Source: Sinosporangium siamense (GTDB lineage Bacteria > Actinomycetota > Actinomycetes > Streptosporangiales > Streptosporangiaceae). Taken from it: a stretch of 45,267 bases of DNA. Below, piece after piece: positions 14,285-34,789 of this stretch. Below the pieces are notes generated by a model, which had not been told where the DNA came from, did no database searches, and saw only the letters and a program-made list of their open reading frames with translations. Each line of letters begins with the position of its first letter. The first letter of the stretch is position 1. Position numbers and translations under genes: made by a program. The stretch covers positions 1 to 45,267 of the forward strand of contig NZ_BOOW01000005.1 of the NCBI RefSeq assembly GCF_016863435.1, written 5' to 3'.

Positions 14285-14830
14285 TTAGATGGGGCCCAGG
14301 AGCACGTTGCCTATGTCGGTGGGATTGTCGGAGAAGTAGAACTCGCGGACGAGGACCTGGAACTCGTCGCGGGTGAGCCGCCCGTCGCCGTCGGTGTCGG
14401 CGTGGGTGAAGAAGGCGTCGATGTCGGCGACGGGAAGGCCGAAGAGCGACATGGCCTGGGTGTATTCCCGCTGCGTCACCGAGCCGTCGTCGTCGAGGTC
14501 GAGCAGGGTGAAGAACAGATCGGCGATGGGGACCAGCACGTCGTCGAAGAGATCGGCCTGCGTGATCAGTTGCTGCATTGCCTTGATGAACACGTCGCGT
14601 TCCACCGTCCCCGCGCCGCTTGCGTCGAGAGGTGCGATGGCCCGCTCCCAAAGGGGGCTGAGGCTCTCCCGCAGCGGCTGTCCGGCCGTTGAACCCGGCA
14701 GGGCGGTGAGGTCGTCTCCGGAGAGGTCGGCGAAACGCAGGTAGTCGGCGACCTCGATGACGCCGTTTCCGTCGGCGTCCAGGAAGTCGAAGAGGCGGTT
14801 GAACTTACGTGTCTGCAAATCGGTCAGCAT
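14285..14830 (-). CDS. Calerythrin-like EF-hand calcium-binding protein
   Basis: A 181-residue cytoplasmic protein with four EF-hand positions, as in calerythrin of Saccharopolyspora. Loop 1 (18-29, DADGNGVIEVAD), loop 3 (111-122, DLDDDGSVTQRE) and loop 4 (145-156, DTDGDGRLTRDE) have good calcium ligands. Loop 2 (about 69-80, DASGAGTVERDV) lacks several and is probably silent. Calerythrins act as calcium buffers or sensors; targets are unknown. The start is the ATG at 14830 (MLTDLQTRKFNRLF), matching the usual family N-terminus; the frame continues upstream but that part has no family likeness. It is monocistronic, ended by the hairpin at 14212-14250. Confidence 0.9.
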   Translation of the reverse strand: MLTDLQTRKFNRLFDFLDADGNGVIEVADYLRFADLSGDDLTALPGSTAGQPLRESLSPLWERAIAPLDASGAGTVERDVFIKAMQQLITQADLFDDVLVPIADLFFTLLDLDDDGSVTQREYTQAMSLFGLPVADIDAFFTHADTDGDGRLTRDEFQVLVREFYFSDNPTDIGNVLLGPI

Positions 14831-15296
14831 GATCCCGGGGGGTCCTTTCTCAGATGCGGGGCCTTCGGGGGTACGGCGGAGCATCGTTTGCCGTGCCGGA
14901 TGCGTGGTTCGCGACGGTTGTGCCGTACCGGCGTCGTGCGGGGAGTGCCGTGCGCGGACCGAGGCATGGTGGGTCCGTCTGATGAGGGGAGGGCTTCGCG
15001 GGTGTGATCAGGTTGGCCGGAAGTGCCGAGACTGAGAGTAACTATATGACTACGAAAGGCTAGGGGGCGAAGGTGAATTGAGTTGCGGAGAGTAATGATC
15101 TCATAACCCGTCGTGCCGTCTTGGGGGTTTGCCGGCGGGGGACTGAAGACCGGGCGGTGCGGCGTTCTCCACTGCTGACGAGAGGTACAGGTGGGACGGA
15201 TAGGGTTCGTGCGGCCGGTTGATTTCGTCCCGGCGTCACCTCGCGCGAGGGGTGGCCGCGAGCTTGGTCGTGAAGTGTGGGAAGAGGAGCGTGGAG
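14831..15296. other. Non-coding gap between divergent EF-hand and small-protein genes
   Basis: No credible gene is visible. The stretch 15020-15120 is clearly lower in GC than the surroundings. A TAGGGT at 15201-15206 could be the -10 of a plus-strand promoter for the small protein at 15297, with an approximate TGACGA 19 bases upstream; this is weak evidence. Confidence 0.4.
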
Positions 15297-16986: not shown

Positions 16987-17478
16987 ATGGACGCTGACGA
17001 GGCAGCCTGGGAGCGGCACAGTGTGCTGCGGGTCGTGCCGCCGGTGGCGCCGCGCAAGCTGGCGAAGGTGCCGTTCGTCGAGTTGGCGGACGGGCGGTTG
17101 CAAGGGGTGGTGTCGAGCGGGTCCGACATCGAGCGGGTCTACGTGTCGTCGATCGCCGCGGGCAGCCACGCCATGAGTTGCAGCACCAACAACAACCGCC
17201 CCTGCGGGGGGCTGCACGGCACGGCCTGCAAACACCTGGGTTCGCTGGTCGACGAGGCGGTGGTGCAATACGGCGTCGATCGGGTCGCGCGTTATCTGCG
17301 GGTCGAGGTGCCCGAGGACGGCAGGTTGATCGGTGCGTTGCGCGGTCAGGTGGAGCGTGCGCCGGCCGCGGTCGTGTTCAGCCGCTTCCTGCGGCACCTG
17401 ACCTACCTTGAGGTGCCCGACAGCACCGAGCCGCTCGCCGAGATGCAGTGGTTTCCGACGTCGCAGGCGGTGCGCTGA
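16987..17478 (+). CDS. SWIM-like zinc-finger protein, first gene of the VWA-MoxR operon
   Basis: A 163-residue protein with a candidate zinc site C65-x7-C73-x7-C81-x-H83 in CSTNNNRPCGGLHGTACKHL. The CxH end followed by a helix (LGSLVDEAVVQYG) matches SWIM domains, but the first two cysteines are seven residues apart instead of the canonical CxC, so this is a variant. SWIM domains mediate DNA or protein binding. GGGAGG precedes the ATG at 16987. The stop and the next start share one base (TGATG), so the genes are translationally coupled. Its place as first gene of the operon suggests a recognition or adaptor role; that is inference. Confidence 0.7.
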   Translation: MDADEAAWERHSVLRVVPPVAPRKLAKVPFVELADGRLQGVVSSGSDIERVYVSSIAAGSHAMSCSTNNNRPCGGLHGTACKHLGSLVDEAVVQYGVDRVARYLRVEVPEDGRLIGALRGQVERAPAAVVFSRFLRHLTYLEVPDSTEPLAEMQWFPTSQAVR

Positions 17479-18983
17479 TGCTTGAGGTGAAGCTGAAGGC
17501 CCTGCTTGACGGCGCGCCGGCCGGGGTCGACGCGGCGCTCGACGTGGTGGCGGGTCTGGACGAGGCTCTTGTCACGGGGTTCGCCCGGCTGGGGCCGGAG
17601 CGGGCGGAGGCGCTGACGGCCTTCGCCGGCGCCCTCGCGGGCACGCCGCTCGGAGCGCGGCTCGGCGAGGCGGTGGAGAAGGCGGTCGCCGGCTCCGTCT
17701 CCGACGAGCACCTGGCTGCTTTGGCCGGTGGCCGGTCCGCTGTGCTCGGCGCGGTCCACGACGCCCTGCTTGACGGGCTCGACGAGGCCCTCGGGCGCTC
17801 GCGCACGGCATGGCAGACGACTCCTGACGCCGCGGTGACCCCATCAAGTGCCGCGGCGGCGTCCACAGGCTCGGGTGGTGGGGCGGCGACTTCGGATTCC
17901 GCTGAGGCGGCCACCGAGACCCTGGGCGATGACGCCGCGGGCGCGGCCTCGGCTTCCGTGGTGGGGGCTCTGGCCGGGTGCCGGGCGTGGTTGCGCGAGG
18001 TGGCCATCACCGGGTGGCGTGGTGTCGACCACGAGCTGACGACGGCGTGTGATCGGGTGGTTGAGGCGCTGCTCGCCGTGCCGGGGTTGCGGGGGCTCGC
18101 CGTGCTGGTCGACGGGCTCGCGGCGGAGCTGCGGGCGTTGAGTCCGCTCGCGACGGCGGAGCGCGTTCCGGCACGCCGGTGGGCCGACATGTGGGCGCGC
18201 GGGTTGCTGCTGGCGCAGGCCGGGGCGTGGCACGGCGACGTGGCCGAGGTGGTGTCGGGGCGGCTGCTGCTCCTCGGCGTGGACGTGCAAGAGCACGGCA
18301 CGGCGGTCAGGGCGCAGGTGTATGCGGTCCTGGAGCCCGCGGGCGGCCGGCCGTCGCGGCTGGTGCGCACGAGTGTCGCGGCGGCGAAGGTGGAGACGAT
18401 CGTCGGCTCCGCCGTATGGCGCCTGCTTGGCGCGCATCCCGTGCTGATGGGCGCGCTGGCCGACCACCGCAGTGTGGAGATCACCGACATGCCGCTTCTG
18501 GCCGGTGGCGACCTGGTCTGGCATGACGACCGGGCTATGGCGAGCACGCCCGCCGACCCGTTCACGACCGCGCGGGTTCAGCTCGCCGAGGCGTCGGCGC
18601 CGCCGGTGACGCCGCTCGACCGCCACCCGGTGCAGATCGCCGAACCTGTGCTGGTGGAGGGCTACTCGTCCGACGGCCGGCTGGTGCGGCTCGGCGAGAC
18701 AGCACTGCCCGTCGATCTCGATCGGCTGCCGGCGCATGGGCCGGTCACGGCCGGGCTTGTGGCCGCCTCCTCGGCCTGCATCGGTCTGATGCGCTGGGAC
18801 GGCGGGCGCTGGCTGCTGCAGCCGCTCGCGGTGCAGGCGACGGTCAAACGCAAGGCGGTCGTCGCGCACACGGGCGACTGGGCGATGGGCCCCACCGATC
18901 CCAAGGTGGTCAAGGCCGAGGCGAAGGCCGGCGACGCGGTCGCCGTGCTCCGGGAACGAGCGCGAAGGCTGCTGAGGCGATGA
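17478..18983 (+). CDS. Unknown 501-residue protein, second gene of the VWA-MoxR operon
   Basis: I do not recognise a named domain. The N-terminal part (about 1-110) is predicted helical and repeats a leucine/alanine pattern (DAALDVVAGLDEALV). Residues about 115-155 form an Ser/Thr/Ala/Gly linker of low complexity. The larger C-terminal part (about 160-495) mixes helices and strands, with LLLLGVDVQEHGTAVRAQVYAVLEPAGG and a basic C-terminus (RERARRLLRR). The start at 17478 is fixed by the one-base overlap with the preceding stop; the stop overlaps the VWA start as ATGA. No signal peptide or membrane segment. It is an obligate-looking partner of the system but its role is unknown. Confidence 0.85.
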   Translation: MLEVKLKALLDGAPAGVDAALDVVAGLDEALVTGFARLGPERAEALTAFAGALAGTPLGARLGEAVEKAVAGSVSDEHLAALAGGRSAVLGAVHDALLDGLDEALGRSRTAWQTTPDAAVTPSSAAAASTGSGGGAATSDSAEAATETLGDDAAGAASASVVGALAGCRAWLREVAITGWRGVDHELTTACDRVVEALLAVPGLRGLAVLVDGLAAELRALSPLATAERVPARRWADMWARGLLLAQAGAWHGDVAEVVSGRLLLLGVDVQEHGTAVRAQVYAVLEPAGGRPSRLVRTSVAAAKVETIVGSAVWRLLGAHPVLMGALADHRSVEITDMPLLAGGDLVWHDDRAMASTPADPFTTARVQLAEASAPPVTPLDRHPVQIAEPVLVEGYSSDGRLVRLGETALPVDLDRLPAHGPVTAGLVAASSACIGLMRWDGGRWLLQPLAVQATVKRKAVVAHTGDWAMGPTDPKVVKAEAKAGDAVAVLRERARRLLRR

Positions 18984-20512
18984 GTGACTTCTCCGGCGGT
19001 CCCGCATCCCCTGCCACGTCCGCCGATCCGTCCGGCCGTTCCGTGTTGTCCGCCTCGTCGGCCGGCCTCCCGGGGGCTTCGCCGTACTCCACGCCGGCTG
19101 ATGGGCTGTCCCCGGGCACCTCGGCACTTGCGGAGGATGGGGCGTCCCCCGGCACCTCAACGCTCGCGGAGGATGTGGTGCCCCCGGGCACCTCGGCACT
19201 TGCGGAGGTGTCCGGGGACCCCATGGCCGCGGGGGTCGCGCATCGGCGGCAGGTGCTCTATTGGCGGCTCCTGTCCCGGCTCTTCGGTGCCGAGGAGCAG
19301 CCCACCCTGGAGACCGCCTCCATGGCGGTCGTCGAGGAGCTGGGCCTGCCTGCCACGTTGCTTGATCCGGAGGTCTCCGTCGACAACCTGGTGCAGCGTT
19401 TCCCCGCGCTCGCCGGCGAGTTGTGCGACCTCATGGCGGCGCGGGAGCACTCCGGTGGTGACGAGGTGCGCAGGGCGGCGCTGGTGTCCAAGTTGCTGCT
19501 CAATGTGTTCGCGACCGGGAGCGGCACCGTCACGGCGGGTGACCTGGCCCGGTGGAAGAAGGACGCGGAGTGGTTCGAGCGCGGCATGGGCTGCGAGCCC
19601 GGCGGGTTGCGCGGGCCGGACGGCGACGCCGAGGTGGCGGGTGTCCTCACCACTCTGGAGGGCGACCTCGTCAAACGGATGCGCCTGCGTGAGGTTCTCG
19701 CCGATCCCTACCTGGCGAGGCAGCTCACGCCGAGCATGTCGCTCATCGAGCAGCTCTTGCGTGACAAGTCCAACCTGTCGGGCGTGGCACTGGCCAACGC
19801 CAAGGCGCTGATCCGCAAATATGTGGACGAGGTCGCCGAGGTGCTGCGCACCCAGGTCGAGCAGACCAGCGTGGGTGTGATCGACAGGTCGGTGCCGCCG
19901 AAACGGGTGTTCCGCAACCTCGACATCGAACGCACGATCTGGAAGAACCTCACCAACTGGAGCCCGGAGGACCAGCGGCTCTACGTGGACCGGCTCTTCT
20001 ACCGCCAGACCGCGCGCCGCACCACCCCGGCCAAGCTGATCGTCGTGGTCGACCAGTCGGGGTCCATGGTGGACTCGATGGTCAACTGCACCATCCTGGC
20101 CTCCATCTTCGCCGGCCTTCCCAAGGTCGACGTGCATCTCATCGCCTTCGACACCCGTGCCCTCGACCTCACCCCGTGGGTGCACGACCCGTTCGAGGTG
20201 TTGCTGCGCACCGACCTCGGCGGCGGCAACGACGGCCACGTGGCGATGAACCTCGCCCGGCCCAAGATCACCGATCCGCGCAACACGGTGATGGTGTGGA
20301 TCTCCGACTTCTACGAGGTCCGCACGCTGATCACCGACTTCGAGTCGGTCCACCGCTCCGGGGTGAAGCTCATCCCCGTCGGTTCGGTGAACAGCTCCGG
20401 CCGCAACAGCATCGACCCGTGGTATCGCCAGAAATTCAAAGACCTGGGCACCCCCGTGATCTCAGGCCATATCCGCAAGCTCGTCGTCGAGTTGAAGAAC
20501 TTTCTCACCTAG
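18980..20512 (+). CDS. VWA-domain protein (ViaA/CoxE-like), partner of MoxR ATPase
   Basis: A 510-residue protein. Residues 1-80 are low-complexity Ser/Pro/Thr with a 12-residue tandem repeat (44-79). A helical middle part (about 85-340) follows. The C-terminal VWA domain begins near 350 with the metal-ion site D358-Q-S-G-S362 (VVVDQSGSM), and TDLGGGNDGHVA provides the next loop. The layout, helical N-terminus and C-terminal VWA, is that of ViaA, which works with the MoxR-type ATPase RavA in E. coli. The start overlaps the previous stop (ATGA). The MoxR ATPase gene follows 10 bases later with a GGAG site. The N-terminal extension may be dispensable; a Met at residue 82 is just before the conserved part. 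Confidence 0.92.
   Translation: MSDFSGGPASPATSADPSGRSVLSASSAGLPGASPYSTPADGLSPGTSALAEDGASPGTSTLAEDVVPPGTSALAEVSGDPMAAGVAHRRQVLYWRLLSRLFGAEEQPTLETASMAVVEELGLPATLLDPEVSVDNLVQRFPALAGELCDLMAAREHSGGDEVRRAALVSKLLLNVFATGSGTVTAGDLARWKKDAEWFERGMGCEPGGLRGPDGDAEVAGVLTTLEGDLVKRMRLREVLADPYLARQLTPSMSLIEQLLRDKSNLSGVALANAKALIRKYVDEVAEVLRTQVEQTSVGVIDRSVPPKRVFRNLDIERTIWKNLTNWSPEDQRLYVDRLFYRQTARRTTPAKLIVVVDQSGSMVDSMVNCTILASIFAGLPKVDVHLIAFDTRALDLTPWVHDPFEVLLRTDLGGGNDGHVAMNLARPKITDPRNTVMVWISDFYEVRTLITDFESVHRSGVKLIPVGSVNSSGRNSIDPWYRQKFKDLGTPVISGHIRKLVVELKNFLT
19109..19216 (+). repeat. 36-bp tandem repeat (3 copies) in the VWA gene
   Basis: Three successive 36-base units encode SPGTSALAEDGA, SPGTSTLAEDVV and PPGTSALAEVSG. 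The unit length keeps the reading frame. Units 1 and 3 share long identical runs, unit 2 has diverged slightly. Confidence 0.85.
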
Positions 20513-20522
20513 GAGCCCCCAC

Positions 20523-21638
20523 ATGACGGACAACATGCTGCGCGCCCCCGCCGAAGTGAAATACGCCGAGGAGCTTGACTGGCTGGAGTCGATCGACGAC
20601 GGGCCCAAGCCGTTCTCGTGGCGGCTCAGCCCCCGCATGGTGCGGCTGTTTGTGCTCGGCTCGGAACGTTCCGACGGCCTTGACCGTGAGATTCCGCAGA
20701 AGTGGTTCGGCGACCGCAGTTTCGTCGAGCGCAGCATCGTCACCTTGGCGTCGGACCGCGGTCTGCTGCTGATCGGCGACCCGGGCACGGGCAAGAGCTG
20801 GCTCGCCGAGTTGCTCTCCGCCGCCATCTGCCGCAACTCCACCCTTGTGGTGCAGGGCACGGCGGGCACGACCGAAGACCACATCAAATATTCGTGGAAC
20901 GTCTCCATGGTGATCGGCAAGGGGCAGTCGCGGGAGTCGATGATCCCGTCGCCCATCATGACCGCGATGGAGCAGGGCGTGATCGGGCGTTTCGAGGAGC
21001 TCACCCGGTCGACCAGCGACGTGCAGGACGCGCTCATCTCCATCCTGTCGGAGAAATACGTGTCGATCCCCGAGCTCGACGACGACAACATCGTGTTCGC
21101 CCAGCCCGGCTTCTCGATCATCGCCACCGCCAACAGCCGCGACCGGGGTGTGAACGACCTTTCGTCCGCGCTGAAGCGCCGGTTCAACTTCGTGCGCATC
21201 CCCGTGGTGACGAACAAGAAGAGCGAGGCGGAGATCGTGCGCTTCCGCACGGAAGAGCTGATGAACAGGCACAACATCGCGCTCGACGTGCCGCCCACGC
21301 TGCTCGACATCCTGCTGCAGAGCTTCGCCGACCTGCGCGCCGCCGCCGCGTCGGCCGGCAGCGACGACGAGAAGCTGGAGTCGGCGCTGTCCACCGCCGA
21401 GCAGATCGGTGTGCTTGAGGACGCCATCCTGCACAGCAACTTCTTCGGCGAGGGCACCCTCAGCGGTCAGACCCTGGCCGGCTCTCTGGTCGGCTCCCTG
21501 GCCCGGCGCAGCCCCGAGGACCTCGCCATCCTCAACAAATATTGGCACGGGGTGATCGAGCCCCGCAGCAAGAAGGACGGCGGGGAGTGGCGCGACTTCC
21601 TGGACGGCGGTCGCCAGGCGATCGCCACGCTCTCATGA
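20523..21638 (+). CDS. MoxR-type AAA+ ATPase
   Basis: A 371-residue AAA+ ATPase. Walker A is GDPGTGKS (85-92). The Walker B position reads RFEELTR (156-162), so the usual hhhhDE has Glu-Glu (E158, E159) with the Asp replaced. Sensor 1 is ATANSRDRG (201-209), and SALKRRFNF carries the arginine-finger region. MoxR ATPases act as chaperones or remodellers with VWA partners, sometimes inserting metals or maturing complexes. GGAG precedes the ATG at 20523. The stop overlaps the DUF5682 start as ATGA. It presumably drives the VWA and DUF5682 partners by ATP hydrolysis; the substrate is unknown. Confidence 0.93.
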   Translation: MTDNMLRAPAEVKYAEELDWLESIDDGPKPFSWRLSPRMVRLFVLGSERSDGLDREIPQKWFGDRSFVERSIVTLASDRGLLLIGDPGTGKSWLAELLSAAICRNSTLVVQGTAGTTEDHIKYSWNVSMVIGKGQSRESMIPSPIMTAMEQGVIGRFEELTRSTSDVQDALISILSEKYVSIPELDDDNIVFAQPGFSIIATANSRDRGVNDLSSALKRRFNFVRIPVVTNKKSEAEIVRFRTEELMNRHNIALDVPPTLLDILLQSFADLRAAAASAGSDDEKLESALSTAEQIGVLEDAILHSNFFGEGTLSGQTLAGSLVGSLARRSPEDLAILNKYWHGVIEPRSKKDGGEWRDFLDGGRQAIATLS

Positions 21639-24600
21639 GCCCCACCGGCGCCGCTCCTGCGAGCCCGTCCGGCGCCCTGCCTTCAAACCCGTCCGGCGTC
21701 AGTCCCTCCAGGACCCTGACCTCAGGTCCGTCCAGGACCCTGGCCTCAGGTCCGTCCAGGACCCTGGCCTCAGGTCCGTCCAGGACCCTGGCCTCAGGTT
21801 CGTCCAGCGCTCCTGCCATGAGCACGCCCGGCGCCCCACGCGAAAACCCGCGCGCCGGTTCGCCCGCGAGGGCCTCCGGCACCGATATGCACTCAGGTGC
21901 GTTCGGTGCCCTCAGGGAGCAGTTGCTAGGTGCCGCCTCCGAGTTCGCCGGGGCTTCCGGCAGCCTGGCGGAGATCCTGTCGGGGCTCGTCGACGACGTC
22001 GATCGGGCGCTGCGCGAAGAGCTGGAGATCTTCCCGGTCTGCCACCACTCGCCGGCGTCCGCGCTCAGCATGGTGCGGCGTCTCCACGAGAAGCGGCCCA
22101 AGGTCATCTACCTGGAGTTGTGTGAGGATCTCACGCCGCTGCTGACCGAGCTGCGCAACTGCCGCCTGCCCGTGGCGCTGCAGGCGTTCGCCTCCGACCT
22201 CGACGGGTTCCCGCCCGCCGCCGGGCCGCTCAGCGTGGTGGCCCCCATCACCGAGGCGTCGGCGGAATATCAGGCGATCGCTTATGCACTGGAGACGCCT
22301 GGCGTCGAGCTCGTGCTGGTGGACCGCTCGTGCGACCACGTCTTCCAGTGGTTGCCCCAGGAGAAGGGGCAGGAAGCCGGCGAAGGCGACGCCCCCAAAG
22401 AGCAGGCCGAGCACGGCGAGGACGCCAACCTGCACGGCGACGCGGTCGGACTGGAGATCGGCGACCTGCGCCCCGGTTTCGCGGAGCTGGAGGAGTTCCT
22501 CCTGCACCACGGCAAGGTGCGCCACTGGTCGGAGTGGTGGGATCAATACGTCGAGCAGCCGCTCGTCTCCGCGGACTACGACACCTACCGCCAGGTCATG
22601 GTGCTGATCGGCAGCCTGTTCCGCCGCCTGCGCCCCACCCGCGGCGAACGCCGCACCGTGGACGAGGACCGCGAACGCTACATGTGGACCCGCATCCGCG
22701 AACACCTCGCCACGTCGGGCGCCGACCCGGCGGACTGCGTCTACGTGTGCGGCGCGTTCCACGCCGCGAGCCGCGTCGAGGAGTTCGGCCTGGCCGCACC
22801 CGCCACGTCGTTCGAGATCAGCCCGCGCACGGCCACCCGCTGGCTCTACGGTCTCATCCCATCGAGCCACTCGGCCATCGAGGCGCAGTTCGGCCTGGCC
22901 CCCGGCTCGGTGTCGGTGGCCGCCGCGACCTGGAGCAAGGCCGTCTCCCGCCAAGGCGTGGAGACCTTCCGGCTCGCCGGTCAGAAGGGCGCGGCCAAGC
23001 GGGGCGGCAAGGCCAAACCCGCGCCCGCGCCGGCCCCGGACGGGCCGCACGAGGTCGTCGACCGGCTGTCGGGCTTCCTCGCCCAGCCGCGCACCCTCGA
23101 CAAACTCGACGAGGCCGAGCTGCTCGGCTGGTGCGTCGACATCGTGCGGCTGGCCCGCCGCAACGGTTACCTCTCAAGCACGGCCGACGCCATCGCCGTG
23201 TTCGAGACGTCGATCCTGCTGGCGGGGATGCGTGGCAGAGCCAGGCCCACGCCATACGATTTTCAGGACGCGGCGGTCACCTGCATCGAGAAGGACTCCG
23301 TGCCGGGGCGGCGCGACGTGCGCCGCCTGTGCGAGATCCTCCTCGGCGGCGACCGCGTCGGGGTCGTGGGCTACGAGGCGCTGCCGCCCCTGGCCCGCGA
23401 GGTGTTCGACCGGCTGGAGCCGCTTGGGCTCGACCTGTCCAAACGCACGGTGCAGCGTTCGCTGATGGACCTCACCGCCTCACCCGAGCTCGTCCCGTGC
23501 TCGGATCTGCTGTGGCGGCTGCGTTTCCTCCTGCCGCAGGGGGCCGTGCGCCCCATCATGGGGGAGCGGGGGCTCGGCGAGCGGTCCATCCAGGAGAGCT
23601 GGGACCTGGCACTAGGGCGTCACCAGCGCGACATCATCGAGCTGGGCTACGAGGGCGTCACCGTCGAACAGGTGCTTGAGCAGCGGCTCCGCCGCAGGGT
23701 GTGGGACCCGGAGGCGACCGCGGCCACCGCTTTGAGCGCCGTCGAGGACGCCGTCGTCTTCCTCGGCGGCGACCGGCTCGCCGACGAGCTCGGGGCGCGG
23801 GCGGTGGAGCTGCTGGCCGCCGAGCGCACCGTCGACAGCGCGCCCGAGGTGTTGCGCAGGATCCGCAGGCTGCTCGCCTACTATCGCGGCCGCGGCACCG
23901 ACCTGCCCGGCTGGTGCGCCGAGTTCGCCACCGTGGGCTACGCGCATTACTGCACGCTGCTGCCGACCGCGTGCGCCGACGGCGACACGGGCGTGCGGCA
24001 GGTGGGCGCGATGCTCGGCTTCCTGTTCAGCATGGAGAGCGTGGCGCTGGCCCTCGGCTGCGACAGGACCCAGCTCGAACTCGCGGTGCGGCAGTGCGCC
24101 CCCGAGCAGCCCGCCAAGGTCGCGCTGGTGTGGGCCGCCGAATGCCACCTCGGACTGCTGCCACTGGCCGAGCTGCGGTCCCGCTGCGACGAACTGCTGG
24201 ACAACCCGCTGGTCGTCCCGTCGTTCCCGCTCTACCTCACCGGCTTCGTCCAGGCCGCCGAACCCGTCCCCGCCTTGACGGGCTTTGTGGTGGAGGTCGT
24301 CTCCAAGGCGTTCGGCCTGCTGCCCGACCACGTGTTGCTGCCGTGGTTGCCGAAGCTCATCACGATGCTCAAGGATCAGGCCGCCGAGTCGATGCCGCTG
24401 CTGGTGCGCGAGGCCGGCCGCACCTTCCCCGGCACCCTGGCAGGCCTGGACTCCTGGACACCCCCATGGTCGGCCCCATCCGTCCCCACCCGCCCCGCCA
24501 CACGTCCGGCGGGCGGCCCGGTGGCCGAGCTGCTCATGTCCCACCGGGCAGCGTGCGACGCGGCCGCCGTCCTCCTCGGCTACGACGACCCATGGGCCAC

Positions 24601-24688
24601 CGCCGGCACACCGGGCAACCCAGAGGTGAACACGCTGCTGTCCACCCACCCCGCCACGGCCCTCGCGGTCGCGGCCCTGCTCACCTGA
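21635..24688 (+). CDS. DUF5682-family large protein, possible TraB/EreA/ChaN-like enzyme
   Basis: A 1017-residue protein. Residues 1-85 are low complexity with a tandem repeat. The conserved domain starts about 95, with FPVCHHSPASA (H137/H138), VIYLELCEDL (E161) and VYVCGAFHAASR (H376). A His followed by a Glu at the end of a strand, and later a Gly-x-x-His, resembles the TraB/Tiki, EreA and ChaN group of metal-dependent or hydrolytic enzymes; this likeness is my reading. A basic Lys/Ala linker (KRGGKAKPAPAPAPDG, about 455-470) separates it from a long helical C-terminal region. No signal peptide. The start overlaps the MoxR stop (ATGA). It is likely the effector of the five-gene system. Confidence 0.85.
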   Translation: MSPTGAAPASPSGALPSNPSGVSPSRTLTSGPSRTLASGPSRTLASGPSRTLASGSSSAPAMSTPGAPRENPRAGSPARASGTDMHSGAFGALREQLLGAASEFAGASGSLAEILSGLVDDVDRALREELEIFPVCHHSPASALSMVRRLHEKRPKVIYLELCEDLTPLLTELRNCRLPVALQAFASDLDGFPPAAGPLSVVAPITEASAEYQAIAYALETPGVELVLVDRSCDHVFQWLPQEKGQEAGEGDAPKEQAEHGEDANLHGDAVGLEIGDLRPGFAELEEFLLHHGKVRHWSEWWDQYVEQPLVSADYDTYRQVMVLIGSLFRRLRPTRGERRTVDEDRERYMWTRIREHLATSGADPADCVYVCGAFHAASRVEEFGLAAPATSFEISPRTATRWLYGLIPSSHSAIEAQFGLAPGSVSVAAATWSKAVSRQGVETFRLAGQKGAAKRGGKAKPAPAPAPDGPHEVVDRLSGFLAQPRTLDKLDEAELLGWCVDIVRLARRNGYLSSTADAIAVFETSILLAGMRGRARPTPYDFQDAAVTCIEKDSVPGRRDVRRLCEILLGGDRVGVVGYEALPPLAREVFDRLEPLGLDLSKRTVQRSLMDLTASPELVPCSDLLWRLRFLLPQGAVRPIMGERGLGERSIQESWDLALGRHQRDIIELGYEGVTVEQVLEQRLRRRVWDPEATAATALSAVEDAVVFLGGDRLADELGARAVELLAAERTVDSAPEVLRRIRRLLAYYRGRGTDLPGWCAEFATVGYAHYCTLLPTACADGDTGVRQVGAMLGFLFSMESVALALGCDRTQLELAVRQCAPEQPAKVALVWAAECHLGLLPLAELRSRCDELLDNPLVVPSFPLYLTGFVQAAEPVPALTGFVVEVVSKAFGLLPDHVLLPWLPKLITMLKDQAAESMPLLVREAGRTFPGTLAGLDSWTPPWSAPSVPTRPATRPAGGPVAELLMSHRAACDAAAVLLGYDDPWATAGTPGNPEVNTLLSTHPATALAVAALLT
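21707..21802 (+). repeat. 24-bp tandem repeat (4 copies) in the DUF5682 gene
   Basis: Four 24-base units in phase with the reading frame, encoding SRTLTSGP/SRTLASGP repeats. Units two and three are identical, the first and last differ by a base each. High identity suggests recent expansion and possible length variation between strains. Confidence 0.92.
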
Positions 24689-24958: not shown

Positions 24959-25096
24959 AGAGGGTGGCCGGGGCGACAGATCGGGTGAAACCCGACACGG
25001 GGGTTTGGTGGAGCCCTACCCGATGGATCATGTGTGAGATGGGCTGCCGGGATTCAAGATAGTGTGCCGCGAGTGCGGCGGTTGAGCGGTTCACGG

Positions 25097-26272
25097 ATGG
25101 TGCGGCGGACGCTGCTCGTGGTCATCGTGACCGCGATCGTCGTGCGGGTCGTCAGGCAGCGGCGCATCGCCCGGGAGCGGGAGCTTCTGGCGCGGAGAGA
25201 GCGGGCTCAGGCGAGGGCTCGGCTGAGATCCGGGGCGCTCAAGCTGTACGCTCCACCCCCTCCGCTCAAGGCCGATCAGGGTGGCTCCGTACAGGTGCTC
25301 GGGGTGCCCTCGGCGGACGATCTCGCGCGCTATGCCAAGCCGGCGCCCCTCAAGGACGCGCTCGCGGCCCCCAGGAGTCCCCGCCCGCCGAGGAAGGCGA
25401 ACCCTCTGCTGGAGCGCCTCGCCCTGGCCGGAGCGGCGCTGGTGGTGCTGCTGGTGCTGGTCGAGGGGTTCGAGACCTTGACGTTCGCCCAGAAGCCGGC
25501 GCGGCCGGCGCCCTTGCCGCTTCAGGCGAATGCCGCCCCACGCGACCCCGGCAGCGCGATGGCCTCATCGTCGACGAACTCATATGCCGTAGAGCGCAAC
25601 CCGGCCCGCTGCCACGAGCGGTATTCCCGCCTGACGGTCCGCCCGCTCACTCCCGCCATGCGGCGCGCGGTGAACCGCCAATGGGTGCGGATCGAGCGAT
25701 GGTTGCGCACCAACGCCCCGCGGACCTACGCGAGCCTGCGCCCGCCCGCGACAGCGCGTGCGATCGCGGTCGCCGAGGCGCAGATGATGTTGAACATCCC
25801 CGACTCCCTGCGGGCTTCGCTCCTGCGCCACAACGGCGCGATCGGCCCCGCCGCCTTCTCCCTCGGGACGGGCGAGTTGTACGGCATACGCCAGCTTCGC
25901 GACGCCTGGCTCGCGTCGTGCCCGGGGAAGGCCGTGAACGGCGACTACCCGGTGGGCTGGATCCCGTTCGCCGAGCGCGCGGAGGTGCACGCGGTCACAG
26001 GGAAGACGATCGACCAGGGCGGCGGCGACGAGGACGCCCCCAGCAGGACGTATTACGCCGCGCTACGGGCGGCCGCGGACGCGCTGACCACCGGGCGCCC
26101 CCTCGACGGCCGCCGGGCGAGGGCCGTCGACGGTGTGCTCCGATGGGTGCCGGTGGGAGGCGCGTCGGCGCCGCAGGACCGGGCCTCGACCGAGCGGACG
26201 GACTGGTCGAAGTGGCCGTCGTCGTGGCCGGGACCTGTCCACCGAACCGTGAGTGAGTCCACTGATCAGTGA
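25097..26272 (+). CDS. Membrane-anchored SUKH (SMI1/KNR4) domain protein
   Basis: A 391-residue protein. A hydrophobic helix follows the start (MVRRTLLVVIVTAIVVRVV), then a basic Arg/Glu/Ala region, then a second helix (about 106-128, LALAGAALVVLLVLVEGFETL). The C-terminal part (about 190-330) is a SUKH domain: WVRIERWLRTNAPRTYASLRP, then EAQMMLNIPDSLRASLLRHNG, then GELYGIRQLRDAW and GWIPFAE. SUKH proteins are known as immunity proteins to polymorphic toxins and as regulators. The start is uncertain: ATG at 25097 abuts the first helix, while GTG at 25034 adds 21 residues; neither has a good ribosome site. Monocistronic. Confidence 0.78.
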   Translation: MVRRTLLVVIVTAIVVRVVRQRRIARERELLARRERAQARARLRSGALKLYAPPPPLKADQGGSVQVLGVPSADDLARYAKPAPLKDALAAPRSPRPPRKANPLLERLALAGAALVVLLVLVEGFETLTFAQKPARPAPLPLQANAAPRDPGSAMASSSTNSYAVERNPARCHERYSRLTVRPLTPAMRRAVNRQWVRIERWLRTNAPRTYASLRPPATARAIAVAEAQMMLNIPDSLRASLLRHNGAIGPAAFSLGTGELYGIRQLRDAWLASCPGKAVNGDYPVGWIPFAERAEVHAVTGKTIDQGGGDEDAPSRTYYAALRAAADALTTGRPLDGRRARAVDGVLRWVPVGGASAPQDRASTERTDWSKWPSSWPGPVHRTVSESTDQ

Positions 26273-31351: not shown

Positions 31352-31381
31352 AGTGGATCATCATCATTCGGGGGGATGGCG

Positions 31382-34300
31382 ATGGGGCGCGCTCAGGTCT
31401 ACCGGGTCGAGCCCGAGGCCGGAGGCGGGCACACCGCACGGGGGGAGCGGTGGTCGCGCTTCCTGTCCGGCGTGCCCAGAGTGCTCGCGACGATCCTCGC
31501 CGTCCTCGCGATCTACAGTGCCGCCATCACCTTGGTCCCGCCCCTGCGGCACTTCCTGCGGCCCTTCACCGAGGTGTTCATCTTCGGGGTGTTCACCCTG
31601 GAGGCCAACCTGGCCTACGCGGTGTTCATGGCGCTGCTCGCCGGCGCCGTGGCCCGGCGCAAACGGGTCGCCTACTGGGTGCTCGTCGCCCTCGTCGTGA
31701 TCACCCTGCTCGCCGACGTCGTGACCATCCCGGTCTATCTGCTGGTGCCCGAGCTCCGCAGCGAGTTGCCGCTGCGCTTCCTCATCGCCAGCTCGTTCAA
31801 CATCGTCCTCATGACCGCCCTGCTGGTCGTGCTGATCGCCGCCTACAGCGAGTTCTACGCCAGGGTCCAGCACGCCTCCTTCCGCAAGGCCGTCTCCACC
31901 GTCATCGCGCTGCTGCTGGTCTCCTTCACCGTCGGGTTGCTCCTGGTCACCTTCTTCCCCGGCACCCTCCCCGTGCACGAGCACATCACCTGGGTCCTGG
32001 AGAAGGCCCTCGGCGGGGCGATCAGCTTCGACTTCGACGCGACCGGCCAGCCGCCCCACTGGGTGTCCTTCCTGATCGGCCTCTTCAGCGCCACGGCCCT
32101 CGTGGCGGGGTTCATCGTGCTGTTCAGGTCACAGCGGGCTCATGCCGTACTCGATCCGCAGAACGAGTCCCGCATCCGCGCGCTGCTCACCGAACACGGC
32201 GAATGCGACTCGCTGGGCTACTTCGCCACCCGCCGCGACCGGGCCGCGATCTTCTCCGCGAGCGGCAAGGCGGCGGTGTCGTACCGGGTCGTGGCGGGGG
32301 TGAGCCTCGCGGGGGGCGATCCGCTCGGCGACCCCGAGGCGTGGCCGCCCGCGATCGAGGCGTTTCTCGACCAGGCCAAGGTGCACGGCTGGACCGCGGC
32401 GGTCGTCGGCGCGGGGGAGGAGGGCGCCCGCGCCTACGACCGCAGCGGCCTGCATGTGCTTCAGATCGGCGACGAGGCCGTGCTCGACGTCGGCACCTTC
32501 TCGATCGACCGGCGGGGCATGCGTGCCGTACGGCAGGCCGTGAACCGGGTCGAACGCGCCGGTTACACGCTGCGGGTGCGCCGCCACAGCGATCTCGCCC
32601 CGCAGGAGATGCGCCGGGTGATCGACCGCGCCCGCGCCTGGCGCGGCGCCGAGACCGAACGCGGCTTCTCCATGGCGCTCGGCCGGCTCGGCGACCCCGC
32701 CGACGGGCGGTGCGTGCTTGTGGAGGCGCTGACCGCGGAGGGGGACGAGGCCGCGATCCTGTCCTTCGTGCCGTGGGGGCGCACCGGTCTGTCGCTCGAC
32801 CTCATGCGCAGGGACCGGCTGTCCGACAACGGCCTGATCGAGTTCATGGTGGCGGGGCTGGTCGAGCGGGCCCCCGCACTGGGGGTCGACCGCGTCTCGC
32901 TGAACTTCGCGGTCTTCCGCTCGGTGTTCGAGGAGGGCGCGCGGATGGGCGCCGGGCCGGTGCTGCGCGCCTGGCGGCGCACGCTGCTCTTCGTCTCCCG
33001 CTGGTTGCAGCTCGAATCGATCTACCGGTCCAATGTGAAATATCGCCCCCTATGGGTGCCGCGCTATCTCGCCTACGGGGAGATCCGCGACCTGCCCAAG
33101 GTCGGCATCGCCCTCGCGGCCGCCGAGGGTTTCCTGCCGAGCAGCCTGCGCACCCTGCTCCACCGGGGCGAGGCCGGCGCCGAGGCCCGGGCCGGAGTGC
33201 GGGCCGGCCGTGCGGAGGCCGCGCCGATCGCCTTCACCGAGGCGCCCACCGAGATCCCCGCCGGAACGCCCGTGGATTCGTCCGCGGCGACGCCCGAGAT
33301 CCGCGCCGCCCCTCAGGCCGAGGTGCCCCTTGCCGCCTCCGAGCAGTCCCGGGTGCGGCTGCGCAAGCTGTCGGAGGTCGCCGACCCCTACCCGCCGATG
33401 TTCCCCCGGACCCACACCTGCGCGGAGGTACGGCGCCGCCACGCAGGCCTCGACCCCGACCAGGCCACCGGCGAGGAGGTGGCGGTGGCGGGCCGCGTCA
33501 TGCTGGTGCGCGACCACGGCCGGGTGATGTTCGCCACGATCGCCGACTGGAGCGGCGATCTTCAGCTCATGCTGACCGACCCGGACCTCCTGTCGAGCTG
33601 GCGGCGCACCGTGGACCTCGGCGATCACGTCGGCTGCCGCGGCGAGGTGGTCACCACCCGCGCGGGCGAGATCTCGGTGCGCGCCGCCGAGTGCGTGATC
33701 ACCGCCAAGTGCCTGCACCCGCTGCCGCGGGCCCACCACGACCTGTCCGGCGCCGAGGCCGGGGCACGCCGGCGCTACCTGGACCTCGTGGTGCGGCCGG
33801 AGGCACGCGAGATGCTGCGCGTGCGGAGCACCGTGCTGCACGCACTGCGCGGCGCGCTGGCCGGGCGGGGGTTCCTGGAGGTCGAGACGCCGATGCTCCA
33901 GCCGCTCCACGGGGGTGCGCTCGCGCGGGCCTTCACGACGCACATCAACGTGTACGACATGGCGCTGCAGCTGCGGATCGCCCCGGAGCTCTACCTCAAA
34001 CGGCTCTGCGTCGGCGGGGTGGAGAAGGTCTTCGAACTCGGCCGGTCGTTCCGCAACGAAGGGGTGTCCTACCGCCACAACCCCGAGTTCACGATGCTGG
34101 AGGCATATCAGGCATATGCCGACTACGGGACCATGCTCACCCTGACCCGCGAACTGATCCAGCAGGCCGCGACCGCCGTCTACGGCTCCCCGGTGGTGCT
34201 CCGGGAGCACACCTCGACCGACATCTCAGGCGAATGGCCGGTGGTCACCGTATACAACGCGATCTCGGCGGCAGCGGGCGAGGAGATCACCCCGGACACC

Positions 34301-34789
34301 CCGGCGGACGAGCTGCTGGTCATCGCCGAACGGCTGGACGTCCCGCTCGAACGGCACTGGGGCAGGGGAGCGGTCGTCCTCGAACTCTATGAACGGCTCG
34401 TCGAGGAACGCACCGTGAACCCCACCTTCTACATCGACTTCCCCGTCGAGACCAGCCCGCTCGCCCGCCCCCACCGGGGCGACCCGCGCCTGGCCGAACG
34501 GTGGGACCTCGTGGCCTACGGCACCGAGATCGCCACCGCCTACTCCGAGCTCACCGACCCGCTCGAACAGCGCCGCCGCCTCACCGAGCAGTCCCTGCGC
34601 GCCGCCGGGGGCGACCCCGAGGCGATGCGGCTCGACGAGGACTTCCTGTTCGCGCTCGAACACGCCATGCCCCCCACCGGCGGCCTCGGGCTCGGCGTCG
34701 ACCGGCTCGTGATGTTTCTCACCGGCGCGTCGATCCGGCAGACCCTGACCTTCCCGCTGGTACGGCTGGGCCCGCTGCACCTCCGGTAG
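31382..34789 (+). CDS. lysX: Bifunctional lysyl-tRNA synthetase / phosphatidylglycerol lysyltransferase
   Basis: A 1135-residue LysX protein that charges tRNA with lysine and transfers it to phosphatidylglycerol, reducing surface charge and raising resistance to cationic peptides. The N-terminal part (1-265) has six or seven membrane helices. A DUF2156/GNAT-like lysyltransferase domain follows (about 270-590), then a variable Ala/Pro linker (590-650), an OB-fold (about 670-765) and a class II synthetase (about 785-1135) with motif 2 FRNEGVSYRHNPEFTMLEAY and motif 3 GLGLGVDRLVMFL. The ATG at 31382 is preferred over 31376 because GGGGGG then lies 6 bases upstream. It ends the Psp-hydrolase run. 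Confidence 0.93.
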   Translation: MGRAQVYRVEPEAGGGHTARGERWSRFLSGVPRVLATILAVLAIYSAAITLVPPLRHFLRPFTEVFIFGVFTLEANLAYAVFMALLAGAVARRKRVAYWVLVALVVITLLADVVTIPVYLLVPELRSELPLRFLIASSFNIVLMTALLVVLIAAYSEFYARVQHASFRKAVSTVIALLLVSFTVGLLLVTFFPGTLPVHEHITWVLEKALGGAISFDFDATGQPPHWVSFLIGLFSATALVAGFIVLFRSQRAHAVLDPQNESRIRALLTEHGECDSLGYFATRRDRAAIFSASGKAAVSYRVVAGVSLAGGDPLGDPEAWPPAIEAFLDQAKVHGWTAAVVGAGEEGARAYDRSGLHVLQIGDEAVLDVGTFSIDRRGMRAVRQAVNRVERAGYTLRVRRHSDLAPQEMRRVIDRARAWRGAETERGFSMALGRLGDPADGRCVLVEALTAEGDEAAILSFVPWGRTGLSLDLMRRDRLSDNGLIEFMVAGLVERAPALGVDRVSLNFAVFRSVFEEGARMGAGPVLRAWRRTLLFVSRWLQLESIYRSNVKYRPLWVPRYLAYGEIRDLPKVGIALAAAEGFLPSSLRTLLHRGEAGAEARAGVRAGRAEAAPIAFTEAPTEIPAGTPVDSSAATPEIRAAPQAEVPLAASEQSRVRLRKLSEVADPYPPMFPRTHTCAEVRRRHAGLDPDQATGEEVAVAGRVMLVRDHGRVMFATIADWSGDLQLMLTDPDLLSSWRRTVDLGDHVGCRGEVVTTRAGEISVRAAECVITAKCLHPLPRAHHDLSGAEAGARRRYLDLVVRPEAREMLRVRSTVLHALRGALAGRGFLEVETPMLQPLHGGALARAFTTHINVYDMALQLRIAPELYLKRLCVGGVEKVFELGRSFRNEGVSYRHNPEFTMLEAYQAYADYGTMLTLTRELIQQAATAVYGSPVVLREHTSTDISGEWPVVTVYNAISAAAGEEITPDTPADELLVIAERLDVPLERHWGRGAVVLELYERLVEERTVNPTFYIDFPVETSPLARPHRGDPRLAERWDLVAYGTEIATAYSELTDPLEQRRRLTEQSLRAAGGDPEAMRLDEDFLFALEHAMPPTGGLGLGVDRLVMFLTGASIRQTLTFPLVRLGPLHLR

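Follow-up and report, generated by a model that had tools for sequence, protein, structure and literature searches.

The 45,267-nucleotide stretch of Sinosporangium siamense DNA analyzed here (contig NZ_BOOW01000005.1, positions 1 to 45,267; hereafter the window) carries five plus-strand genes at 16987-24688 that together form a YehL-type operon. The first gene (16987-17478) encodes a SWIM-like zinc-finger protein of 163 residues and the second (17478-18983) a protein of 501 residues that marks this operon lineage, and neither of the two proteins matches a family in Pfam, NCBIfam or PADLOC at the cut-offs used. They are followed by genes for a VWA_CoxE protein homologous to YehP (18980-20512; PF05762, E = 1.5e-26), a MoxR AAA+ ATPase of the YehL type (20523-21638; AAA_5, E = 3.6e-36) and a DUF5682 protein homologous to YehM (21635-24688; PF18934, E = 8.3e-34). 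The longest open reading frame of the DUF5682 gene opens at a TTG at 21542; the coordinates given here use the alternative ATG at 21635. A sequence-only reading of this DNA had described a MoxR ATPase and its VWA partner as associated with a large DUF5682 protein with enzyme-like motifs, within five genes joined by one-base or ATGA overlaps and a single 10-base gap, and the Pfam matches and open reading frames bear out both descriptions. Specifically, the stop codon of the SWIM-like gene and the ATG of the second gene at 17478 overlap by one base (TGATG), the second gene and the VWA gene share an ATGA at 18980-18983, 10 bases (20513-20522) separate the VWA gene from the MoxR gene and, given a DUF5682 start at 21635, the last two genes share an ATGA at 21635-21638. 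A promoter scan, which covers one promoter type, found none.

We found that this arrangement is tightly conserved. A DUF5682 query of a collection of species genomes returned at least 566 confirmed relatives, of which the best 80 were kept, a set that leans to near kin. All five genes occur in one order and on one strand in 78 of these 80 loci, confirming the expected co-occurrence of the five families in other genomes, and the two exceptions lie at the end of a contig and are without the first gene (L046) or the first three (L035). The junctions of the relatives, for which the 12 commonest values each were considered, are kept as well: the SWIM-like gene and the gene of the 501-residue protein overlap by one base in 71 of 78 loci, the latter overlaps the VWA gene by four bases in 78 of 79, and the VWA and MoxR genes lie 6 to 28 bases apart in 67 of the 69 values listed. 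At the MoxR/DUF5682 junction a four-base overlap accounts for 53 of the 75 values listed, the others being scattered and partly due to misplaced starts. The flanks vary: the most widespread flanking family is present in 16 of the 80 loci, the window is absent from all 45 flank families listed, and its aldo-keto reductase neighbor has weak matches only (23-34% identity), in 6 of the 80. Because the order of the five genes is kept while the flanks change, the conserved module consists of these five genes, and the operon is thereby confirmed as real.

In E. coli K-12 the genes yehL, yehM, yehP and yehQ encode MoxR, DUF5682, VWA_CoxE and SWIM proteins, respectively, which is the same core set in one run. 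Upstream of yehL, with yehK alone in between, lies yehI, a DUF4132 gene (L003, 5280-15945). YehL is moreover one of seven named MoxR subfamilies (PMC3893208). Judged from its sequences, the window operon is a divergent lineage of this known YehL kind, so the set is not undescribed as a kind, contrary to what the sequence-only reading had supposed. It differs from yehLMPQ in gene order, in its short SWIM-like protein with an altered finger and in the presence of the extra gene for the 501-residue protein, and its DUF5682 protein scores 117 bits against the family model as compared with 331 bits for YehM (cut-off 26). As far as we searched, the YehL kind is known but uncharacterized: the literature covered, which omits most subscription journals, yielded no mention of DUF5682 or DUF5691 and, in agreement with the earlier statement, no experimental function for an operon of this kind. 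Judging by their titles, the papers that name at least two of yehL, yehM, yehP and yehQ are genome papers, and yehQ was among the genes tested in a butanol study.

In the MoxR protein, the Walker A motif, the EE motif and the sensor stretch are present in 80 of 80 sequences, and profile comparison matches it to the YehL group at 100%. In the MoxR tree the window groups with YehL and the types A and B described below, with RavA and three other ATPases from the same genome outside; the join has a support of 88/80, and the outgroup branches are very long. RavA-ViaA, which had been offered as a parallel, is another MoxR-VWA pair, but it is a more distant comparison since the window MoxR belongs to a clade that excludes RavA. 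The VWA protein matches the YehP group with 100% probability and carries a MIDAS site (20051-20308, plus strand) composed of D358-x-S-x-S, position 417 and D443. Position 417, the Thr position of the site, is N in the window; of 80 rows, window included, 48 have T there and 32 have N.

A lineage comparison that added 20 further actinobacterial loci revealed four lineages, namely A, B, Y (E. coli-like) and W (that of the window). The trees of the VWA protein and of DUF5682 recover each lineage as one group. The MoxR tree does so for W and Y and, with weak backing, for A, but it divides B, since L144, labeled B there, does not join L140-L143; the order among the lineages is unsure because the W branches are long. 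The same S. siamense genome contains a second, typical actinomycete operon (L004) of the order SWIM, DUF5691, MoxR, DUF5682 and VWA, which shares the core set with the window but has DUF5691 in place of the 501-residue protein, a different gene order, and MoxR, VWA and DUF5682 proteins that fall into separate tree groups. DUF5691 was found in 13 of 14 lineage A loci. In lineage B (L140-L143), DUF5682 and the VWA protein are fused in one open reading frame in all four loci, next to a gene whose product, about 1,600 residues long, has no Pfam match where tested (L141, L143). A DUF4132 gene is present in lineage B where tested (L141), near the lineage Y operons (L145, L146 and E. coli) and near the outlier L144; none occurs among the window neighbors scanned, and the extra gene of the window matches neither DUF4132 nor DUF5691. 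Because the accessory gene differs among lineages, we do not count DUF4132 or DUF5691 as defining the YehL kind. The recurrence of DUF4132 near the actinobacterial operons of L141, L144, L145 and L146 suggests that YehI is part of the YehL system.

The large DUF5682 protein matches the YehM group at 99.3% in profile comparison. Its N-terminal part (21950-22942, plus strand) is predicted to fold like members of the TIKI/EreA/ChaN superfamily, and the TIKI core fold is seen in the predicted model: seven of the ten best structural matches belong to this superfamily and three are unnamed, after which the score drops. Among the named matches, a haem-bound entry of ChaN ranks first. Conserved residues of the domain include H168/H169, E192, D261, R377/E378 and H407 (numbered from 21542), and in the predicted model a conserved His, Glu, Arg and His appear to sit at the positions of the TIKI-family active site. 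A strand-end His and Glu, together with another His and a basic residue, all placed with the help of the model, were found in 35 of 35 sequences; for the remaining Glu of the 2His/2Glu set, no counterpart was matched in DUF5682. Two GX2H motifs are characteristic of the TIKI superfamily. At the second site of DUF5682, G-x-x-H is present in 35 of 35 sequences, and at the first site GVRH or GIRH occurs in 13 of the 14 sequences listed from other lineages, with PVCH in the window lineage. The likeness to the TIKI/TraB/EreA/ChaN superfamily comprises the predicted fold and the His-Glu-Arg-His positions, whereas the DUF5682 N-domain differs in its setting, a polypeptide of about 1,000 residues that also has a helical solenoid and is encoded beside a MoxR motor. 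An attempt to prove the TIKI link from sequence failed, as did its positive control, and a search of PDB sequences with DUF5682 gave chance-level rows only (E of 0.54 and up).

Fold searches with the whole DUF5682 model were filled by its helical part and are uninformative on the N-domain. A helical segment at 23054-23461 (plus strand) may resemble the lid of a MoxR AAA+ protein; this is a lead only. Six pieces scanned against Pfam gave no lid family, one of the six, from L127, having come from elsewhere in the protein. A C-terminal run of helices (23624-24442, plus strand; model residues 578-850, pLDDT mostly above 85) appears to form an alpha-solenoid, for which the fold search returned helical-repeat proteins.

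The zinc protein and the protein of no recognized family named by the sequence-only reading are there, in that a finger is present in the one and no library match was obtained for the other; the SWIM identity itself is unproven and the spacing of the finger is a variant. It reads C-X7-C-X7-C-X-H (17179-17235, plus strand), a spacing present in 51 of 79 sequences, with a second gap that is longer by one or two residues in the other 28, and the motif TNNNRPCG is found in 78 of 79 relatives. The SWIM finger of other operon types, where the pattern was found, is C-X-C...C-X-H, and comparison with the YehL-type SWIM protein gave a short profile alignment (E = 0.059). The label 'SWIM-like', for which the variant finger and no library match provides the basis, is fair, and 'SWIM' is not proven. 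The 501-residue protein has no relative found among PDB sequences. We also considered it as a homolog of DUF5691, of the SWIM protein or of YehQ and obtained no significant profile match, the best row being to the C-terminus of YehQ (probability 1.4, E = 0.037). The idea that the first two genes are a split version of one YehQ-like gene is likewise unsupported.

DUF5682 of any lineage is widespread in the order to which S. siamense belongs, being present in 141 of 150 genomes, and the W-specific gene for the 501-residue protein is patchy, with 61 of 150 at E values up to 0.001 (58 strong, three weak and partial). In a phylum sample of 396 genomes, 24 have DUF5682 and seven the W-specific gene, one of these weakly. 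Identity of the best DUF5682 segments to the window is 65-77% across genera. A quick tree built from 73 DUF5682 sequences of the W type mostly follows genus, requiring 13 changes for 11 genera (minimum 10, shuffled mean 39.5). The protein of Streptomyces milbemycinicus is placed among those of Actinomadura, a placement that may reflect a transfer. W-type DUF5682 also occurs in five plasmid records, four of them labeled non-mobilizable and some chromosome-sized; the five-gene order is present in the one record examined, that of a 0.93-Mb Streptomyces plasmid.

We propose, giving this reading an even chance, that the five genes encode an ATP-driven complex of the YehL-YehM-YehP-YehQ kind in which a MoxR-VWA machine controls a TIKI-type hydrolase. 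The proposal draws on the gene content and order, the homology to YehL, the DUF5682-VWA fusion of the sister lineage, and the TIKI-like fold and residues in the predicted model. MoxR would form the motor ring, and the VWA protein, through its MIDAS site and a finger reaching into the pore of the ring, would couple it to DUF5682. The model for this is NorQ-NorD, in which the pore of MoxR takes up a finger of the VWA protein and the latter is twisted as ATP is consumed (PMC13036017). The fusion in lineage B makes it most likely that the same VWA lever carries DUF5682. As the working enzyme, DUF5682 would use its N-terminal domain to hydrolyze peptide or ester bonds, its lid-like segment would possibly dock on the MoxR ring, and its long solenoid would bind a substrate or partner. 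ATP hydrolysis would twist the VWA-DUF5682 unit and so confine opening or loading of the hydrolase to the time when a target is held, and the SWIM-like and 501-residue proteins would contribute target recognition. NorQ-NorD and CoxD-CoxE are likewise pairs of a MoxR motor and a VWA protein, but their clients are cofactor-bearing oxidoreductases, and no conserved client gene was found beside the window operon. New here are the putative TIKI-type assignment of DUF5682 and its proposed link to the VWA adaptor.

It is possible, though on balance unlikely, that the operon instead encodes a maturation machine in which MoxR and the VWA protein open a client and insert a metal or another cofactor, with DUF5682 as the client or as a ChaN-like haem or metal binder and the SWIM-like protein as a carrier of zinc. 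MoxR-VWA pairs are known to insert cofactors and to act in the maturation of complexes (PMC3893208, PMC13036017), and such a role is also in line with the membership of the window VWA protein in the CoxE family and with the match to haem-bound ChaN. The metal-loading idea of the earlier reading also finds one thin hint in the mutation of yehM in copper-evolved E. coli (PMC12409786). However, yehM is a single mutated gene among many, and the flanks of the operon hold no conserved partner gene, their families reaching at most 16 of 80 loci. We regard as improbable a role in protein quality control, in which an unfoldase would work with a peptidase and the TIKI domain would cut motor-fed proteins under stress. 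An AAA+ motor, a putative hydrolase, a helical solenoid and the presence of DUF5682 in nearly the whole order would fit this role, but no MoxR system is known to feed its substrates to a protease. Those described in the work cited remodel their clients (PMC3893208, PMC13036017), the hydrolase assignment is a prediction, and protease activity of DUF5682 is putative.

A conflict or anti-phage system, which had also been suggested, along with a test for enrichment near defense genes, appears very unlikely to us. Here, DUF5682 would be the effector of a MoxR-vWA ternary system, a class of predicted conflict systems mostly of multicellular bacteria (PMC7159879). The sister MoxR proteins do match the ternary model bpMoxR weakly, below the cut-off (E = 2.7e-5 for L004 and 0.0012 for YehL), and the patchiness of the window type (58 strong matches in 150 genomes) and the five plasmid records would suit such a system. 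Yet the neighbor families seen are ordinary and lend the idea no support: in a scan of 133 neighbor proteins, made with no matched control, the commonest PADLOC families match three to four proteins and are TAP-like hydrolases and kinase-like proteins (25 of 44 families listed), and the Pfam families comprise regulators, cupins, hydrolases, a few kinases and others (25 of 158 listed). DUF5682 and the 501-residue protein have no PADLOC match, and the identity of DUF5682 segments across genera and a tree that mostly follows genus also argue against a conflict role. VMAP, iSTAND, FtsH, beta-propeller and effector domains were not detected above the Pfam cut-off in the five proteins, two of which match no Pfam family at all, the coverage of these domains by Pfam being unchecked, and the text of PMC7159879 that was covered contains none of the terms SWIM, yeh or DUF5682. 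Finally, adjacency of the five genes by chance is refuted by their co-occurrence in the same order in 78 of 80 loci with changing flanks.

Several genes around the operon deserve mention in their own right. The next gene downstream (25034-26272, plus strand) encodes a SUKH-1 (SMI1/KNR4) domain, and comparison with the 80 related loci did not find it there; the SUKH-1 family includes toxin-immunity proteins. Further downstream, an 1137-residue protein (31376-34789, plus strand) fuses a transmembrane region to a phosphatidylglycerol lysyltransferase-type domain and a class II lysyl-tRNA synthetase, and upstream, on the minus strand, lies a gene for a bacterial EF-hand protein of 199 residues (14285-14884).

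In its fullest form, which we hold tentatively and with less than even confidence, our proposal is that YehL-type operons encode a new AAA+-gated enzyme in which a MoxR ring and a VWA lever would act on a TIKI-type peptidase or esterase with its own mimic of an AAA lid, with SWIM fingers choosing the target, and that the window represents a fourth lineage with a lineage-specific recognition protein. A predicted fold, a likely active site and a VWA fusion for the large partner of YehL make residue-level tests possible in a laboratory strain. If the proposal is true, MoxR motors would extend beyond cofactor insertion to include ones that control a hydrolase.
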